64,000 nt of DNA, taken from Maridesulfovibrio sp. Lineage in GTDB: Bacteria > Desulfobacterota > Desulfovibrionia > Desulfovibrionales > Desulfovibrionaceae. The notes under the pieces are model-generated. The model worked only from the letters and a program-made list of their open reading frames with translations, searched no databases and was not told where the DNA came from. The position numbers and the translations under genes are program-made. Below, in pieces: positions 54,779-63,893 of the stretch; within the stretch, counting starts at the first letter, position 1; every line of letters begins with the position of its first letter. The DNA is taken from the NCBI RefSeq assembly GCF_963678865.1, contig NZ_OY787459.1, positions 3,092,501 to 3,156,500 on the forward strand, read 5' to 3'.

Positions 54779-55075
54779 TTACACCACAGCCCCACGCCCC
54801 ACAGGAGTAACCCCAGACAAATCAACCTGACTGCGGACCTTACCAAGGTCATAGTTAGCCTGCATAGCCAACCAGCTTTCGGGGGTACGTCCGAGGACCT
54901 TTGAGAGGCGCAGGGCCATTTCAGGGGAAACCGCGCTCTTGGCGTTCAGGACACGGGCGAGAGTAGAGGGAGCCACGCCGAGCATCATTGCCAGCTTGCG
55001 GCAGCTGAGATTGTATTCTTCCATGTATACGGAGCTGATAAGCTCGCCGGGATGTGGGGGATTGTACATAGTCAT
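54779..55075 (-). CDS. higA: HigA-type antitoxin (XRE family)
   Basis: 98 aa. HTH of the HigA subfamily: YNPPHPGELISSVYMEEYNLS, LAMMLGVAPSTLARVLNAK. It represses its operon and neutralises HigB. The ATG overlaps the toxin stop (TAATG). Intact, whereas the toxin gene has an internal stop. Confidence 0.9.
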   Translation of the reverse strand: MTMYNPPHPGELISSVYMEEYNLSCRKLAMMLGVAPSTLARVLNAKSAVSPEMALRLSKVLGRTPESWLAMQANYDLGKVRSQVDLSGVTPVGRGAVV

Positions 55076-55353
55076 TAATGATAATCCTCGTAGTTTAATA
55101 TGTAGGCATTCCCATCGCGAAACTCAAAGGTCAGTCGCCAATTTCCGTTAACGGTTATGGACCAGAGGTCCGCACGGCTTCCTTTGAGCTTGTGCAGCCT
55201 GAATCAGGGAAGGTTAATGTCTTCCGCTTCCTGAGCCGTATCAATGACTGAAAGCTGGATTCTTAGCCGCTTGGAATGCTTGGCCTGTATCCCGGCTGTT
55301 GAACCGGATCGATAAAATTTTTCCAGACCTTTGTGCTTAAATGTTTTGATCAT
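55075..55353 (-). pseudogene. higB: HigB-like toxin gene with in-frame TGA
   Basis: Reads MIKTFKHKGLEKFYRSG ... AEDINLP, stop, FRLHKLKGSRADLWS ... LNYEDYH. Family members have Gly (GGA) where TGA lies (codon 50, 55206-55204), so one base change (GGA to TGA) explains it. The rest of the frame is intact to 93 codons. The truncated product lacks the C-terminal active-site strand. Confidence 0.85.
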
Positions 55354-55411
55354 TGCTCTTCATTTGTGTGTTGCGCACTACGCAACATTTTGTCAAGAAG
55401 TGTTGAGGACA

Positions 55412-56599
55412 CTAGTTTTCTAAAACGGCCACCGCAGCTTTCAAATTATCCGGTGCAAGATGGGCATACCGTTCTGTCATAGCCAGAGTGGAATGGCCCA
55501 TGAGCTTTGCCACGGTATAAAGTGGAGTGCCCCGCTGAACTAACCAGCTTGCGAAAGTATGGCGCAGGGTATGGAAAACAACCTTCTGCCTACGGTCGTC
55601 GATACCGACATTTAGACCAAGCTCGTCGACAGCCTCATTGAACAGTCTGGATACCTCATTGAGCTTTTTACCGCGTTGTGCACTGAAGACCGGCTTTTGG
55701 TCAGGGTCAATTTGCTTGCGCAGTTCTCGGAGCTCTTTCTTTACCTGTTTGGTCATGAAGGCGTGTCGTGAGAAACCATTCTTGGCGTCACGTATCAGGA
55801 TCATGTCTTCTGCAAAGTTCAGATCCTTCCATTCAAGATCGATGATTTCGCCCGCTCTAAGGCCGCAGTAAAGGGAAACTAAAGAAACGCAATGCTGCAG
55901 GGGATTTCTTTCCAGCAATACACCAAGAAGCTGGTCAGCTTCATCTTCTGACAGGAAACGCGTCCGACGGTTATCCATCTTGGGCATTTTGATTTTTTTG
56001 ACCGGATTGTCACCTTTGAAAATATCCAGATTCTTGGCGACATTGTATACTTGGCGCACGGTCGCAAGGGCATACTGTATGGAGCGGGGGCTACGTCCCT
56101 TTTCAGACATATTGGTTTTGATCTTTTCAAGGTCGGTCGCTGATACACAGGCAAAAGGGCAGTCGCCTATGGCAGGTGAGATCCAGATGCGGTGTAGGCT
56201 TTCTTCTCGCTTCCATGATTTGGCCGCTTTGTTGGCTTCTGCTTGCGGTCGATAGAATTGAGCCCAGATTTCATCAAAGGTGATGCTTTTGTCTTTCTCG
56301 GCTCTATCGCGTGCTTCCTGCTCTTCGAGTTCAGCGGCGGCCATCTCTTTTTTCTGCTTCAGCGTCTGGGGAAATTTGCCTTGCGTCTGGTTGACCTTAA
56401 GCTCACTGAGAACGTTCGCAGCATCTTGAGCTTTAACGCCTTGACTGGCCCAGCCTATGGACTCGGTTTCGGTCTTCCCTTTATACTTGTAAGTGATGGT
56501 AAAGTACTTGTCCGGCTGAATGCCGTGCTTGCGGGTTTCGTGTTCCCGGTAACGTACTCCGGGGTACTTCGTTTTGTTCCACTTAGGTCTCGTTGCCAT
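55412..56599 (-). CDS. Tyrosine integrase of IME2
   Basis: 395 aa. Start at the ATG 56599 (MATRPKWNKTKYPGVRYREH), with GGAGG upstream; N-terminal AP2-like arm-binding domain, SAM-like core-binding domain, catalytic R in CGLRAGEIIDL, HTLRH, H and Y in TERYAHL. Intact, so IME2 may still move and perhaps help IME1. The gene lies beside its element end, pointing inward. Confidence 0.93.
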   Translation of the reverse strand: MATRPKWNKTKYPGVRYREHETRKHGIQPDKYFTITYKYKGKTETESIGWASQGVKAQDAANVLSELKVNQTQGKFPQTLKQKKEMAAAELEEQEARDRAEKDKSITFDEIWAQFYRPQAEANKAAKSWKREESLHRIWISPAIGDCPFACVSATDLEKIKTNMSEKGRSPRSIQYALATVRQVYNVAKNLDIFKGDNPVKKIKMPKMDNRRTRFLSEDEADQLLGVLLERNPLQHCVSLVSLYCGLRAGEIIDLEWKDLNFAEDMILIRDAKNGFSRHAFMTKQVKKELRELRKQIDPDQKPVFSAQRGKKLNEVSRLFNEAVDELGLNVGIDDRRQKVVFHTLRHTFASWLVQRGTPLYTVAKLMGHSTLAMTERYAHLAPDNLKAAVAVLEN

Positions 56600-56613
56600 C
56601 ATTACCTCCAATT

Positions 56614-57064: not shown

Positions 57065-59209
57065 TCAAAACCCGCTTTCACGCAACAAAAGGTTATATCC
57101 ACTGCGTAGCCAGCTAAGTAGAAGTGATTTGGGTTTGGTTCTAAGACGTGCGGTTCCGCTCTGCCCGATTAATAATGAGGACTTTGGCTCAGGCTTGATT
57201 TCTATTACGTAATAGCTGTCAACCATGTTCATGCGACCTTTCTCATCCGGCGCTACAGGAATTACTCCCTGCGAAAGGGAGGTCAAGGCTATATGTTCCA
57301 CATTCTCTGAACGGGCCGGGCTGATACGGGTGACTTCTCCGGATACCGGACCTGCAGCCGAGGCAGGGTAGAATTTTGCGAAATCCCCGACATGAATTGA
57401 AGATATGTTTTTTTCTTCAACAAAAGCCCGGACAAGAATTTCAGCCTGATTTGCAATGCGTCCCATGGCAACATCCTTACCTACGTAGCTGCCCTTGCGC
57501 AGGTTTTCATCCCACCAGAGAACCATGCCATCCATGCGGGCCTTTACACGCTGTTCTTCCAGCTTCTTTTCCAGACCTGCCAATTTGGATTCAGCCTGTT
57601 CTATTTCCTCATTCTTTTGCGGTAACAGGGCGCGTGATATAGCATCCAGTTGAAGGTTAGAATGTTCAAGAGTCAAAATTGCCAGCCTGTTACGGGCCTC
57701 CGCCAATGCCGTCTCCAGCTCGCGTGAATGGAAGACCGCCAGCACCTGTCCTTTTGATACAAAGTCACCCTTACGAACATTTATGTCCAGTAACTGACCG
57801 GCTGAAGGGGCATGCACAACCTGCATCTCACCGGGAACAATTACTGCCGGAGCTTTTAGATCGTGCTTTAAAGGAGCTGCTCCCCAGATTAAGATGGCTG
57901 CCAGCAGTGCCAGCAGCGCTAAACCCGTCCAAGTGAAGTGTATTGACTTTCTGCTTTGTATGATACTTTTCATTTCCATTCCAAGAGGCTTAAGTATGAA
58001 CCACCATATCTCTACGATAAAAAGGAACAGGCCGAGGGTTTTGGTAAATTTGTAATACACGAGCACTGCAATACCTAAATATAATACCAGCCGATAAAGC
58101 CATGCATAGACAGAATAGCAGATAAAAGCGCAGAGACGTCTCGTTTTCAGGTTTTTTTCGGGACAGGCATTATCTATCCCCAACAACTTTTTCCGATAAA
58201 ACCAGCGGGTGGTCGCGAAAGCGCGCGGACGCAAATTATCCACACCCCAGAGGTCCATGAGTATAAAGTAGCCGTCAAAACTCATGGCTGGGTTCAGGTT
58301 TACCGTCAGCGTTGAAATAAGCGAGGTGGATGATACAACAAAACAGATGCTGTTGAATACTCCCGGAGGAGATACGGACCAGCCGAACAGGGCCAGACCG
58401 GCCATGATTATTTCGGCCTTGATTCCCGCTGTGGCTATTGCGGCTCTCTGCCTGCGGTCGCTAAGCCTCCAGCCATCTGTGACATCACAGAAGGCCACGG
58501 GCCACATGACCATAAAGGCAATTCCCATTACAGGCACGCGCACTCCAAAATTCTTGGCCGTATAGGCGTGTGAAAATTCATGGATAGTCTTGATGATTAT
58601 GATGAACCCGCCGTACCAGATCATCCCGTTCAGGTTGAAAAAATATGGAAAGGTGCTCAGGTAGAGGGCAAAATTACGGAGCATAGCGGAAAGCCCCAGC
58701 AGGCCGAAAGTCAGATATAAAATTATGGCCGGTCTGGATACCAACAACCTTGCTATGCCAAGAGTTTCGCTCAGAAATCGGTCCGGGCGCAAAAGGGGGA
58801 TGCGGATATAGAGATAATTTTTAAGCAACCAGTTAAAAATGCTGAGCCGGGTGGCCTTGTTTCGGGCCATAAGCTTTTCCACGGGCTGAATAAGCGCTGC
58901 CGTGGTCAGTCCCGCAAGATTGGCCTGATCGATAAAATTCAGCAGTTCCCGATCCGAAAGGCGGATAGTGCTGGAGTCGGTCAATTTTTTTTGCAGCGAA
59001 GCAAGGGTTGCGGGGCGACGCAGCAACTCCAGAATTATAGCCTCGGACCAGCCCACCTTTGAGAAACTGCGCGGCACGGGATCGTAAATGGTATAAGTTG
59101 GGGAGCCGTTAAGGGCTGCCGGTCCGGCTACGATCTCCAGATCGGGACGCAGTTGTGGAAGCGGTGCGTTTACATCAATTTTATTATCTCCAGCAGAGGA
59201 AAGCTGCAT
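57065..59209 (-). CDS. M50-type membrane peptidase fused to HlyD adaptor
   Basis: 714 aa. N-terminal winged/PqqD-like region (~60-110), then a polytopic site-2-protease-type domain with zinc motif HEFSH at ~207 and FDGYFILMDLWGVDNLRPRA, then a TM helix and HlyD-like biotinyl-lipoyl and coiled-coil domains (~450-700, VVHAPSAGQLLDINVRKGDFVSKG). Such fusions accompany type I secretion of large adhesins or lasso/bacteriocin-type peptides; substrate not in view. Follows the GAF-HlyD gene by 12 bp. Confidence 0.88.
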   Translation of the reverse strand: MQLSSAGDNKIDVNAPLPQLRPDLEIVAGPAALNGSPTYTIYDPVPRSFSKVGWSEAIILELLRRPATLASLQKKLTDSSTIRLSDRELLNFIDQANLAGLTTAALIQPVEKLMARNKATRLSIFNWLLKNYLYIRIPLLRPDRFLSETLGIARLLVSRPAIILYLTFGLLGLSAMLRNFALYLSTFPYFFNLNGMIWYGGFIIIIKTIHEFSHAYTAKNFGVRVPVMGIAFMVMWPVAFCDVTDGWRLSDRRQRAAIATAGIKAEIIMAGLALFGWSVSPPGVFNSICFVVSSTSLISTLTVNLNPAMSFDGYFILMDLWGVDNLRPRAFATTRWFYRKKLLGIDNACPEKNLKTRRLCAFICYSVYAWLYRLVLYLGIAVLVYYKFTKTLGLFLFIVEIWWFILKPLGMEMKSIIQSRKSIHFTWTGLALLALLAAILIWGAAPLKHDLKAPAVIVPGEMQVVHAPSAGQLLDINVRKGDFVSKGQVLAVFHSRELETALAEARNRLAILTLEHSNLQLDAISRALLPQKNEEIEQAESKLAGLEKKLEEQRVKARMDGMVLWWDENLRKGSYVGKDVAMGRIANQAEILVRAFVEEKNISSIHVGDFAKFYPASAAGPVSGEVTRISPARSENVEHIALTSLSQGVIPVAPDEKGRMNMVDSYYVIEIKPEPKSSLLIGQSGTARLRTKPKSLLLSWLRSGYNLLLRESGF

Positions 59210-59221
59210 ACCGCTCCTCCA

Positions 59222-60622
59222 TCAAAACCCGAAGTATGCATTAAAGGCGGCCCACGGCTTTCTGAACAGCCAGTAACCCAGACTTACCTTTTCTCCATAA
59301 ATAACAGTTGTCCCCTTCAAGCCAATTTTAACGTCGGGGCTATCCCCTTTCCATTCAGCCTCGGCCAGAACACTTGCTACACGCTGCGGGCTGACTTCAA
59401 CTTCACTGCCCACGAATTCCAGCTTGCCGGGCAGGACTGATTCAGGCATTACGTTGAGCATTGTGCGGACAGGGACATTAAAATCAAAGTCCATATTATC
59501 ATCTTCGGGAATCCAGATACGGACCTTTGTCTGAGAAGGGTCCACTACGGAGAGTACTCTTTCACCCATGAAAACCGGACGGCCTCTCCATTTTTCGGGA
59601 TCAGCGATGACGGCCACGCCGTCTTTCTCTGCATGTACCTTGAGCATAGCAATATTGTGCTCGGCCAGCTTGAAGCGGGCCTGCTCCTGATCCAGACGGT
59701 GTTCAAGAATAGCGATCTCAGATCTTGCTCTGGCATCGGCGAAGGCCTGCATGCGGGCGCGGTCAAGTGATGATTCTATAATCAGAACCTGTTCGCGGGC
59801 TACCTTAAGTTCTTCAACTGCAGTACGCTGGTCATACTCAAAGAGTATCTGACCCTTGGTTACCTTATCCCCCGGATTGATCTTCACCTCTGCTATGACT
59901 CCGTTCAGGGGTGCGGAGACGATGAAAGGATCATCAGCAACCACCTCACTGGGTGCCACAACACGTAAAGGCAAACGCACCAGCAGCAGGGTCGCCACAA
60001 CTGCCGCAAAGAGAAGCAGCGTTAATTTTTTACCTGCAAGAGTACTGAGTTTATCTGCCAGTGGATGTTTCGGGTGCAGCCGTTCCCATGCTCCGGAGTA
60101 ACCAGCGATAAGATGGCTTAAAAGATTCTGCTCCTGATCATTCCAGGGCCTAGATCCCCAGCGTTCAAACCAGAGTCCGCCGACATGTTTCCCCCATCCT
60201 GTCAAGGGAAACCAGATGACCGAGATACCGCCGTTCTTTTGCACGTAAGCCTGCCAGTACTTGCGTATATTCTCAGGAAAGTGTTCTTTGCTAAGGACGC
60301 ACGGTTCTGTGGCCTTGTTTAATGCTGCAGCAAAACTGTTCCATTGTTCCACCATCTCGGAGGTCTTGTTGATCGCAGACTGTCCAGAAATTCCTTTCAG
60401 TTTCAACCGTTTTACCCCTTGCTCGAAAAACAGGGCGCGGTCATATCCGCACAGGGATACAGTGCGGTTGAGCATGCTGAAAACTAGTTCCTCTGCGTTT
60501 TTAGCATGCAGGCTTTCAAGGCTGAGCTTCTGGAGCACACTGAGAATGCGGATACCTTTTTCAGCGTCAGAGGGAGTTCCCATTATACTTAATTGCTCCT
60601 GCAGGATGACTGTTCCACGCAT
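59222..60622 (-). CDS. GAF-HlyD membrane adaptor
   Basis: 466 aa. N-terminal GAF-like cytosolic domain (~20-180), TM helix near 195-215 (LTLLLFAAVVATLLLVRLPLRVV), then HlyD lipoyl halves and coiled coil in the periplasm (VSAPLNGVIAEVKINPGDKVTKG). An ATG at 60583 is an alternative start. Pairs with the M50-HlyD protein, likely as two periplasmic adaptors of one export system. An outer-membrane partner is missing upstream, where the locus is broken. Confidence 0.85.
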   Translation of the reverse strand: MRGTVILQEQLSIMGTPSDAEKGIRILSVLQKLSLESLHAKNAEELVFSMLNRTVSLCGYDRALFFEQGVKRLKLKGISGQSAINKTSEMVEQWNSFAAALNKATEPCVLSKEHFPENIRKYWQAYVQKNGGISVIWFPLTGWGKHVGGLWFERWGSRPWNDQEQNLLSHLIAGYSGAWERLHPKHPLADKLSTLAGKKLTLLLFAAVVATLLLVRLPLRVVAPSEVVADDPFIVSAPLNGVIAEVKINPGDKVTKGQILFEYDQRTAVEELKVAREQVLIIESSLDRARMQAFADARARSEIAILEHRLDQEQARFKLAEHNIAMLKVHAEKDGVAVIADPEKWRGRPVFMGERVLSVVDPSQTKVRIWIPEDDNMDFDFNVPVRTMLNVMPESVLPGKLEFVGSEVEVSPQRVASVLAEAEWKGDSPDVKIGLKGTTVIYGEKVSLGYWLFRKPWAAFNAYFGF

Positions 60623-60845: not shown

Positions 60846-60988
60846 CCTAACCTGAGCGATTCTCCAACCTGACACAATATCAAAGCTGGCATATCTTATT
60901 GTTTTTGTTTGCGATCACATTCATCTGCTACGTCATAATCATTTCACCCATCAGGTGGAGGGCTGGATGTCCAACTCAAAAGGGAAAG
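60846..60988 (+). mobile_element. IS1380-family left-end remnant
   Basis: Starts CCTAACCTGAGCGATTC and runs to a transposase start MSNSKGKAGTI then stop. Aligns along ~140 bp with the right-hand copy (62246), with many differences, so two related but not identical elements. Confidence 0.8.
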
Positions 60989-60994
60989 CAGGAA

Positions 60995-61642
60995 CTATTT
61001 GACAAGCAAGTCGATCGGGCCTTTGCCAGCCTGTACGATTTCGCTCACTCCTTCATAAATGAAGTAGGCTCCTGTCATGCCGCAAACGATTTTCGCGGCT
61101 GTACGGATGTCCTTGAAACGGCTGAGCAGGCTCGTGAACAGAAAGGGCAGCATGTAGAGGCTTGTGGCCAGGAAGAACAGCAGGAAAAACAGTGTGCCGT
61201 TCAACATGGAACCGGTTCGCAGCCCCGCCCCCACAGCGAGGAGGAAGGGGGGGCAGACATTGATACCTGTGAGGAAGCCGGTGACTAACATCAAGCTGCG
61301 GCCTCTTGTTTTGCCTGCCACGTAATGGCACACGGACCAATGCGGGAAGTGGAGCCCCAGGCTGTGGCCCAACATGACCCCGCCCAGAATGATCTCGGTA
61401 ATGGGTAGAGCCGTGCTAAAGACAAGGCTGCCGGAAGCAAAGAACTCGCCAGCCAGGCCGCTCAAGGCACCAAATAGCATGTAGGCCATGAGCCGCCCGC
61501 CCATGAATATGCCCAGTGAAACGGCGTTGCCATGAAACCCTGCTTCGTCTCGGGACAGCATGAGCCCCATCAGGACAGGAGCGCAGTACCCCAGGCAGAA
61601 CATGCCTGTGGAGAGCCCCAGACCGAACGCTTCTGCGTACAT
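60995..61642 (-). CDS. DsbD-core/TauE-SafE-like membrane protein
   Basis: 215 aa from the ATG at 61642, which overlaps the TGA of the upstream gene (TGATG). Six TM helices. A CxxxC in TM1 (MFCLGYCAPVLMG) and a Cys in TM4 (GINVCPPFLLAV) match the positions of the redox cysteines of DsbD and CcdA. Such proteins carry electrons across the membrane to periplasmic thiols; annotation pipelines often call them sulfite exporters or UreH-like. Partner: the CxxC-bearing MIP18-like protein upstream. Confidence 0.8.
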   Translation of the reverse strand: MYAEAFGLGLSTGMFCLGYCAPVLMGLMLSRDEAGFHGNAVSLGIFMGGRLMAYMLFGALSGLAGEFFASGSLVFSTALPITEIILGGVMLGHSLGLHFPHWSVCHYVAGKTRGRSLMLVTGFLTGINVCPPFLLAVGAGLRTGSMLNGTLFFLLFFLATSLYMLPFLFTSLLSRFKDIRTAAKIVCGMTGAYFIYEGVSEIVQAGKGPIDLLVK

Positions 61643-62199
61643 CAGTCTTCCCCCAGCAAGAGGCGGTTGCCCTGGGCAGTCATATCCGCGGGCGTCCATC
61701 GGGTGTCCAGGTCTATCAAAACCGTGACGTTACACCCTGGGCACGTTGCGCCTGCCTGCTGCTTGATTTCGGCAACGATCACTTCCATAAACGGACACGT
61801 GGGGGTCGTAATAATCATGTTCACGACAATCAGGTCCTTCGAAACGGAGATGCCTTTGATCAGCCCCAGATCAACCACGTTCACGTCCAGTTCGGGATCT
61901 ACAACCTGTTTCAGCTTTTCAAGTATGCGTTGTTCAGGGCTCCCTTTGGCGTACGACAACTCCGGTACAGGAGAAAAATTGGCGGATGAAAGGCAGGCCT
62001 CTGTCCGACGGTTGGCGAGTTCATCGTTGATGCGAAGCAGGGATTGAGCTTCATTGGTAGTGGAGTTCACTGTTGCAGTGGGCTGAACTGGTTTCTGCCC
62101 TATGCGCAGTGAATACAAGAGGGTCGCACCCTGTCTGACTGCAGCAAGCGCGACCAACAGGAGCATGACAAACACCGACACTCGAAATATTCTGCTCAT
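61642..62199 (-). CDS. Membrane-anchored MIP18/DUF59 protein with extra CxxC
   Basis: 185 aa from the ATG at 62199 (AAGGA upstream; the frame is open to 62292 without a site). N-terminal TM helix (VFVMLLLVALAAV) after MSRIFR, so the domain should face outside the cytosol. The MIP18 core has VDPELDVNVVDLGLI and TTPTCPF. Where the family usually has a valine/glycine turn before the last strand, this one has CPGC. MIP18 proteins normally act in cytosolic Fe-S assembly; an exported one is unexpected. Translationally coupled to the DsbD-like gene. Confidence 0.82.
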   Translation of the reverse strand: MSRIFRVSVFVMLLLVALAAVRQGATLLYSLRIGQKPVQPTATVNSTTNEAQSLLRINDELANRRTEACLSSANFSPVPELSYAKGSPEQRILEKLKQVVDPELDVNVVDLGLIKGISVSKDLIVVNMIITTPTCPFMEVIVAEIKQQAGATCPGCNVTVLIDLDTRWTPADMTAQGNRLLLGED

Positions 62200-62245
62200 T
62201 TTCGACTCTGTCCTTGGCGATCCGTTTTTTTTAGCCTTTGTTGGG

Positions 62246-62808
62246 CCTAACAGGAGCAATCCTCCAGCCTGGCACAACATCACTGCTGGCATATGTTGTT
62301 GTTTTTACTTGCAATAGCATCCAGTCGAAGCCTCATAATCATTTCACCAGTTTGGTGGCGGGCTGGATGTCCAACTCAAAGAGAGCCAAAGCAAAATTCA
62401 TCGACGATGTCCAGGTCACGAACGACTGTCTGACAAGTCGAGCCGGACTCAACCTCTTTGCTCGCTGCAGTCGCGTTATTGATATGTACCCACACATCAA
62501 TCGTCTCTTCGGCTCCATGCGCAAGAATCCCAAAGGCGCACCAATCGATGAGCTGTTCAAGCAGCTTCTCTGTTTCCTTTTCGACGGCACGAGCCGCCGT
62601 CTCGCGCATTTTGACGTCCTGGCCAAAGACCCCGGTTACGCCGCCGTTATCGAGACGAGCCAGAAAGGCATGGTCTCCTCGCATACCGTCAAACTGCTTT
62701 CGTCCTCGTGGTCATCAAGACAAGACTCGAATCCGCCCCCATTTGCGTCGCTTCGTGCCGGTTTTTCCCGGAGGGAGCCATTACAGCGCCACAAACGCAC
62801 GATTTAGG
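62246..62808 (+). mobile_element. IS1380-family element with internal deletion
   Basis: Begins CCTAACAGGAGCAATC and ends ...CGATTTAGG (inverted CCTAA ends). Transposase starts at 62367 (MSNSKRAKAKFIDDVQVTND) but only ~100 residues are homologous before the frame breaks and the element ends, so it is a deletion derivative. Confidence 0.75.
62367..62807 (+). pseudogene. IS1380 transposase, truncated
   Basis: Keeps the N-terminus to about EIETSQKGMVSSHTVKLL, then an out-of-place tail; the catalytic middle with the DDE residues is absent. Not functional. Confidence 0.75.
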
Positions 62809-62828: not shown

Positions 62829-63893
62829 TCAGCTTGTGCTTACACAGCCCTCAAAAAAATATTTCTTTTTGAAATGTAAGGCTACATTAACCAGTGCGAT
62901 AAGCACAGGAACTTCTACAAGGGGGCCTATAACTGCAGCAAAAGCTGCCCCCGAATCAATTCCGAATACTGCAATAGCAACAGCTATCGCGAGTTCGAAA
63001 TTATTTGAAGCTGCAGTAAAACTCAGTGTGGCAGCCTGGCCGTAAGTCGCATCCGCCTTATACGAGAGGTAAAAGGAAACCAGAAACATGACCAGAAAAT
63101 AAATGGTCAGAGGTATAGCAATACGAAGAACATCAAAGGGAAGCTCGATGACCTTGTCACCCTTAAGTGAAAACATGACCACAATAGTGAAAAGCAGAAA
63201 AATAAGTGTCAGCGGGCTGATGCGGGGTATGAACTCATTTTCATACCATTCCTTGCCTTTTATCCTGATTCCGACATAACGGGTCACCATACCGGCTAAA
63301 AACGGAATTCCCAGATAGATAAAAACACTCTCGGCGATCTGGCCAATGGAAATATCTACAACTGCCCCTTCAAGACCGAACCAACCGGGCATAACGGTCA
63401 GGAAAATATACGCATATACAGAGAAAAAAATAACTTGAAATATGGAGTTAAACGCGACCAGCCCCGCGCAGTATTCGGTGTCACCCTTTGCAAGATCATT
63501 CCAGACAATGACCATAGCGATACAGCGAGCAAGGCCGATCATAATTAACCCCACCATATATTCGTGGTAACCGGACAAGAAGGTTATTGCCAACGCAAAC
63601 ATAAGCACAGGGCCAATAAGCCAATTCTGTATCAGAGAAAGAAAAAGTACTTTATAGTTTTTAAAGACCTTTCCCAATTCCTCATATTTAACCTTGGCAA
63701 GCGGCGGATACATCATCAGGATAAGTCCGATAGCAATTGGAATATTTGTGGTTCCAACCTGAAACGAATTGATAACGTTTTTGATTTCAGGATAAAAATA
63801 CCCGCTGCCAACCCCGATAAACATTGCCAAAAATATCCACAAGGTCAGATAACGATCCAGAAAGGAGAGTTTTTTCATTGTTGACTCAGACAT
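62829..63893 (-). CDS. acr3: ACR3-type arsenite exporter
   Basis: 354 aa, ten TM helices. Start [21 protein letters not shown] with GGAG upstream; ACR3 hallmarks [36 protein letters not shown] (with the essential Cys) and [19 protein letters not shown]. Exports arsenite by proton antiport. The plus-strand end of the window (63960-64000, minus) may hold the C-terminus of a preceding gene, EVNNDF stop; an ars regulator is plausible. Confidence 0.94.

Follow-up and report, generated by a model that had tools for sequence, protein, structure and literature searches.

A MIP18-type protein with a predicted export signal is encoded together with a CcdA-like membrane protein in Maridesulfovibrio and its relatives

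The analyzed window is a 64,000-nt stretch of a Maridesulfovibrio sp. genome (contig NZ_OY787459.1), and two of its minus-strand genes form the subject of this study (Table 1). The first gene encodes a protein with a MIP18/DUF59 domain, the second encodes an integral membrane protein of the DsbD_2 family, and their frames overlap at the junction GACTGATGTAC, where TGATG provides both stop and start codons and couples their translation. Both frames are intact and carry all conserved residues. The family assignments lie above the Pfam gathering thresholds, with 72.8 bits against 24.9 for the DsbD_2 protein (PF13386, E = 4.6e-20) and 61.6 bits against 23.5 for residues 89-159 of the MIP18 protein (PF01883, E = 8.9e-17). 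The original prediction, made from the sequence of the window, had described a DsbD-core-like membrane protein coupled by TGATG to an anchored MIP18 protein, and its genes, families and overlap are confirmed. The MIP18 protein reaches 56.7 bits against the SufT equivalog model (NCBIfam SUF_assoc, TIGR02945), below its cut-off of 143.4, and no suf gene is seen beside its gene.

Table 1. Positions of the gene pair, its flanking features in the window, and the chemoreceptor genes at three related loci.
Feature	Position	Strand	Basis or remark
MIP18/DUF59 (FeS_assembly_P) gene, 185 aa	61642-62199	minus	PF01883 match
DsbD_2 (CcdA-like) integral membrane protein gene, 215 aa	60995-61642	minus	PF13386 match
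TGATG stop/start overlap, translational coupling of the MIP18 and DsbD_2 genes	61640-61644	minus	sequence
Possible ribosome-binding site AAGGA of the MIP18 gene	62211-62215	minus	11 nt upstream of the start codon (ATG at 62199); identified by eye
Left remnant of IS1380-like end	60846-60980	plus	79% identical to 62246-62380
Right IS1380-like remnant, decayed transposase	62246 to about 62806	plus	PF13701, E = 0.016, below cut-off
acr3 arsenite exporter gene, judged outside the system	62829-63893	minus	TIGR00832, 461.7 bits
PocR chemoreceptor gene, locus L051	5027-7336		
PocR chemoreceptor gene, locus L052	4505-6814		
PocR chemoreceptor gene, locus L053	8513-10822		

The MIP18 protein begins with a hydrophobic core (residues 7-21) and a possible cleavage site (ALA/AV, the slash marking the cut), followed by a linker of about residues 30-85 and the DUF59 domain, and its cysteines are C69, C135 and the pair in C153-P-G-C156. 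Its AlphaFold model has a mean pLDDT of 74, with blocks of the domain at 85-96, and is matched by DUF59 crystal structures (Foldseek; 3lno, E = 1.5e-9; also 3cq1 and 1uwd). The protein therefore resembles SufT, MIP18 and CIA2 in its domain, its DPE and TxxxC motifs and its structural matches; in contrast to them, it has an N-terminal signal or anchor and a linker, and is predicted to be periplasmic.

In the DsbD_2 protein, C16 and C20 fall within the first predicted helix (TM1) and C130-P131-P132 within TM4, which agrees with the original claim of cysteines placed as in DsbD and CcdA. The model of this protein, of middling quality (mean pLDDT 73), has its helices interrupted at C20 and immediately ahead of P131, a pattern that a CcdA-type core should show, with C130 of the CPP motif at the break before residues 131-141. 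In comparisons of this model to known folds, CcdA (5vkv) ranked fifth without significance (probability 0.80, E = 0.29), and a VIA-align search of 990 chains gave no Z of 8 or more, with CcdA absent among the matches listed; a profile search against PDB sequences found no match. Overall, the protein is like CcdA and the DsbD core in its PF13386 score, its multi-helix membrane core, and its Cys-Pro breaks in TM1 and TM4. It differs in lacking fused thioredoxin domains, in having a DUF59 protein as partner instead of a thioredoxin-fold protein or a cytochrome c apparatus, and in carrying CxxxC in TM1, where CcdA and DsbD have a single cysteine. The PF13386 family also takes in proteins proposed as transporters.

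Each protein of the pair was searched against 348 genomes of the host order, which yielded MIP18 relatives in 6 genomes and DsbD_2 relatives in 8. Both genes are present in five genomes, and in all five they are adjacent with the MIP18 gene first: the window's genome, three of the same genus (G260, G264 and G271), and one from another genus of the family (G150). This pairing exceeds chance because every genome of the order having both genes keeps them adjacent and in the same order; thus, the gene-neighborhood survey proposed with the original prediction found a conserved linkage. Four of the pairs have overlapping frames; in that of G150, 7 nt separate the MIP18 stop from the likely start of DsbD_2. 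The window proteins are only 32-36% (DsbD_2) and 20-35% (MIP18) identical to the other pair copies, identities low enough to indicate that the linkage has persisted. Moreover, the two gene trees agree: in both, the copies of G260, G264 and G271 form a group with that of the window (100/99 for DsbD_2 and 96/90 for MIP18), while the G150 copies form long, unplaced branches in each. The three copies from the genus may represent a single unit, either inherited or moved. The unpaired matches are a soluble MIP18 protein of 106 aa (G172) and weak or partial DsbD_2 matches in G269, G208 and G128. The G269 match (E = 8.5e-5, two stops) was followed up by tblastn to E = 1, and no remnant of either gene turned up at that place.

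The search was extended to 395 genomes of the phylum, a sample drawn from a larger group that covers about half of the known species, such that rarer cases may exist. MIP18 matches (E ≤ 1e-5) occur in 94 of these genomes and DsbD_2 matches (E ≤ 1e-10) in 9, namely the window's and 8 others, none of which is among the 94. From 30 MIP18 loci read in this search, the 29 non-window loci have no adjoining DsbD_2 gene; conversely, a MIP18 neighbor was found beside none of 30 DsbD_2 relatives from genome contigs and none of the 8 non-window phylum matches. Across the phylum sample and the genome contigs, the pair was not found outside the host order. The DsbD_2 protein had no plasmid match and viral contigs gave no match to the pair, while the MIP18 protein matched 42 plasmid records, where the 20 listed are below 60% identity and mostly share the DUF59 domain alone.

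The conserved cysteines separate what is shared by the family from what is particular to the window. In 40 aligned DsbD_2 sequences (matches with fewer than about 140 aligned residues and copy L118 were left out), C16, C20, C130, P131 and P132 are invariant and P22 is present in 39. Loss of the TM1 and TM4 cysteines in homologues, which the original prediction had named as evidence against itself, did not occur. With adjacency in five of five genomes and these cysteines kept in 40 of 40 relatives, the MIP18/DsbD_2 module is real, rare and old. In the MIP18 partner, C135 of the TxxxCP motif is the sole cysteine common to all five pair copies, and it is present in all 36 aligned DUF59 domains, a set picked by the D-P/R/H-E motif, so that its DPE count holds by construction. 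C69 aligns with a cysteine in four of the five copies, and CPGC occurs in the window copy alone. The G150 protein has one cysteine besides that in its hydrophobic segment, and therefore a dithiol (CxxC) relay inside MIP18 is not the shared mechanism.

These counts bear on the original proposal of a periplasmic thiol relay through CPGC that, with acr3, would respond to stress from arsenite or metals. The window does contain both CPGC and an adjoining acr3 gene; however, CPGC is confined to one of five copies, none of the other four pair neighborhoods (16 kb each) has acr3, the pair and acr3 differ in GC content (55.6% vs 42.4%), and IS-like debris separates them. The stress link was consequently dropped, CPGC as the active thiol was not upheld, and this explanation is very improbable. 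From the broader claim of a reductant-driven relay, the CcdA/DsbD-like core, the anchored or exported MIP18 protein, their linkage and their cysteines stand, while the CxxC relay is not general.

The neighbors of the pair in related genomes provide candidate clients. In G260, G264 and G271, a third gene encodes a 770-aa chemoreceptor, whose domains in G264 were scanned as CHASE3, PocR and MCP. Its TM segments start near residues 2 and 365, and the PocR domain (151-320) is predicted to be periplasmic because it is located between them. The PocR domain of these receptors has three conserved cysteines (FC, RC and CHAGL), which we infer to bind a cofactor; by sequence, the domain has no relative in the PDB. 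Among 23 distinct PocR proteins of the genus, counted by hand from 37 matches listed, these three are the only ones with the domain between TM segments, and the rest look cytoplasmic. In PMC1592074, the PocR domain is a predicted sensor of growth substrates. G264 and G260 have a common gene order around the three-gene unit and the surroundings in G271 differ, which indicates that the unit was kept or moved together.

The G150 pair is part of a gene run that also encodes two dehalogenase-like proteins with three TM segments each, a permease-like protein and three small 4Fe-4S proteins of the membrane. The dehalogenase-like proteins match TIGR02486 with E = 1.2e-40 and 1.6e-41, both under its cut-off, and a Tat motif is present in none of the five Fe-S proteins (the two dehalogenase-like proteins and the three small ferredoxins). 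A reading of their flanking charges suggests that the Fe-S parts are outside in four of these five. For hybrid reductive dehalogenases, which carry TM helices at the N-terminus, either orientation has been predicted (Atashgahi 2019, PMC6797604; also PMC6129605), and the PMC6797604 text as searched has no mention of DsbD or neighboring thiol genes. The G150 pair is associated with two such proteins, whereas the window genome has none, its only candidate being a weak 33% match in a 264-aa frame. The dehalogenase was also considered as a general partner and rejected. A relative (E ≤ 1e-25) occurs in 48 of the 395 phylum genomes, and in 20 dehalogenase neighborhoods read from 20 of them, DsbD_2 was found in one (G592) and MIP18 in none. 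The G592 protein lies in a dehalogenase operon (its contig C215 is taken as that of locus L015, as the two read alike and have the same length of 21,534 bases), where DsbD_2 adjoins an anchored TIGR03980 protein ('hybrid cluster protein-associated redox disulfide domain'; 43.4 bits, cut-off 44.95) in place of MIP18. The operons at L142 2961-13087 (L015) and L054 75-8526 are homologous; each encodes a pair of dehalogenase-like proteins, ferredoxins of the membrane, a permease and DsbD_2. Their small anchored partner carries a TIGR03980 domain in one and is MIP18 in the other.

MIP18 was likewise rejected as the general partner of this DsbD_2 subfamily, as the loci read mostly have a NapH-like polyferredoxin. 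In particular, seven of the eight non-window phylum DsbD_2 matches belong to a unit with this polyferredoxin and an anchored 150-aa protein. These units share the DsbD_2 subfamily and its invariant cysteines with the window pair and differ in their partner, a 4Fe-4S membrane ferredoxin rather than MIP18; their composition suggests a ferredoxin-fed export of thiols. The unit is widespread in clostridia, Methanosarcina, Elusimicrobia and genomes of the window's phylum (L119-L125, L002, L003, L005, L007, L008 and L024), and several of its copies also include an anchored protein of about 150 aa ('SP.YSGGE...HRPVFDGL'). For the MIP18/DsbD_2 pair, the recurring partners, namely the PocR chemoreceptor in three genomes and the dehalogenase-like and ferredoxin proteins in one, point to exported cysteine-rich or Fe-S proteins.

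DUF59/MIP18 proteins are known as cytoplasmic Fe-S maturation factors and, to our knowledge, all characterized DUF59 proteins are cytoplasmic or nuclear. The pair members are predicted to depart from this, with a MIP18 domain exported behind an N-terminal signal or anchor. All five have an N-terminal hydrophobic core (15 residues with a mean hydropathy of 2.45-3.08), unlike SufT, a soluble cytoplasmic protein, and in four of them the N-side charge exceeds the C-side charge; the window copy is ambiguous (+2 on the N side, +3 on the C side). Signal-peptidase-like sites are AFS/AE at L051, ATA/DD at L052, VYA/DN at L053 and the window's ALA/AV. These signal and topology calls follow a rule of thumb from charge and hydropathy only. 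MIP18 proteins outside the pair look soluble, including L041 and 28 of the 29 non-window phylum loci, which have no hydrophobic N-terminal segment; the exception, L063, is a frame with a doubtful upstream start. A search of titles and abstract openings, directed at exported DUF59 proteins and at periplasmic insertion of Fe-S clusters, showed no exported DUF59 protein in the library covered.

The same segment could hold a cytoplasmic MIP18 domain at the membrane, where it would give Fe-S clusters to the cytoplasmic sites of membrane proteins, with DsbD_2 acting as a separate, co-expressed thiol or cofactor transporter. The precedent of the characterized proteins fits this alternative, as do review passages that describe SufT and CIA2 in cytoplasmic Fe-S assembly only (PMC8593673), the ambiguous charges of the window copy, and the two orientations predicted for hybrid dehalogenases. 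However, the relatives show N-side positive charge and signal-peptidase-like sites, the PocR domain of the neighboring receptor sits between its TM1 and TM2, and it would be hard to see a purpose for so strict a coupling to a redox protein of the membrane; we consider this alternative unlikely. A second alternative is that DsbD_2 is a transporter of a metal ion or of some small sulfur compound, for which the exported MIP18 protein would be the metal- or ligand-binding receptor. Its supporting matches, of the DUF59 fold to the C-terminal domains of cation diffusion facilitators (ranks 23-40, E about 0.06-0.1) and of the L051 DsbD_2 protein to the copper chaperone family PpoB2 (E = 0.0016; 18.9 bits vs 28.7), are both below threshold, while the conserved residues at the tested sites of the 40 DsbD_2 relatives are CcdA-type cysteines and prolines and acr3 does not recur beside the pair. 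Such a transport role is quite unlikely.

The reading that we tentatively adopt, at somewhat less than an even chance, is that the exported MIP18 protein and the CcdA-like thiol conduit constitute an extracytoplasmic maintenance module for the thiols or Fe-S sites of Sec-exported proteins. The DUF59 domain would use the Sec route to cross the inner membrane and would then be tethered or soluble in the periplasm, while the co-translated DsbD_2 protein would carry reducing equivalents across the membrane via C16/C20 of TM1 and C130 of TM4, like CcdA and DsbD. These electrons would hold the single essential MIP18 cysteine, C135, or the client cysteines that MIP18 presents, as thiols; MIP18 would act through its one cysteine, by which it presents, protects or loads the client site. 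Exported, Sec-inserted proteins with cysteine-ligated sites could thereby gain a cofactor or retain it. In the usual view, exported Fe-S proteins receive their clusters before Tat export. A more specific version of the module, in which the exported DUF59 factor, maintained by the conduit, loads or protects Fe-S clusters or other cysteine-ligated cofactors in Sec-inserted exoplasmic proteins (the PocR chemoreceptor and the anchored dehalogenases) and so bypasses folding in the cytoplasm followed by Tat export, is improbable, though it merits mention. With a conserved exported DUF59 protein beside a transmembrane thiol conduit, the building or keeping of cysteine or Fe-S sites outside the cytoplasm becomes directly testable. 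The recurrence of the pair beside exported cysteine-rich proteins hints at their maturation or reduction there, and gives a handle on two unexplained groups, the hybrid membrane-anchored dehalogenases and the chemoreceptors with a periplasmic PocR domain.

In the window itself, the pair has a higher GC content than its surroundings (45.2% for the window), compared with 37.5-38.9% for the pairs of genus relatives and 57.4% for that of G150, and it is flanked by a 135-nt direct repeat. As the transposase remnant in the right copy matches its family only under the cut-off, the original label of IS1380 remnants is plausible and is taken over partly from the earlier reading. High GC together with IS-like repeats on both sides argues for acquisition from a GC-rich source, and the window pair was probably acquired horizontally. 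It stands without its usual neighbors and may be a passenger here: the window genome has no other PF01883 protein and no periplasmic PocR receptor, as its one PocR protein has no TM segment. A second DsbD_2 match in this genome, at 2907 kb, was set aside as a different, histidine-rich protein. A pair carried along without function, left between IS remnants with neither promoter nor client, would fit the flanking remnants, the missing neighbors, the lack of any client found in the genome, and a scan that gave no promoter-like site upstream of 62199 on the minus strand. Intact frames with complete conserved residues, a plausible ribosome-binding site and the coupling of the genes argue the other way, and we hold this to be a minor possibility. 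Near the pair, an HTH protein and an integrase of phage type are encoded at window positions 54779-56611, in keeping with a mobile region. Further, minus-strand positions 57065-60622 encode an M50-peptidase/HlyD-like fusion (714 aa) and an HlyD-like protein with a weak GAF match (466 aa), which are perhaps an export pair.
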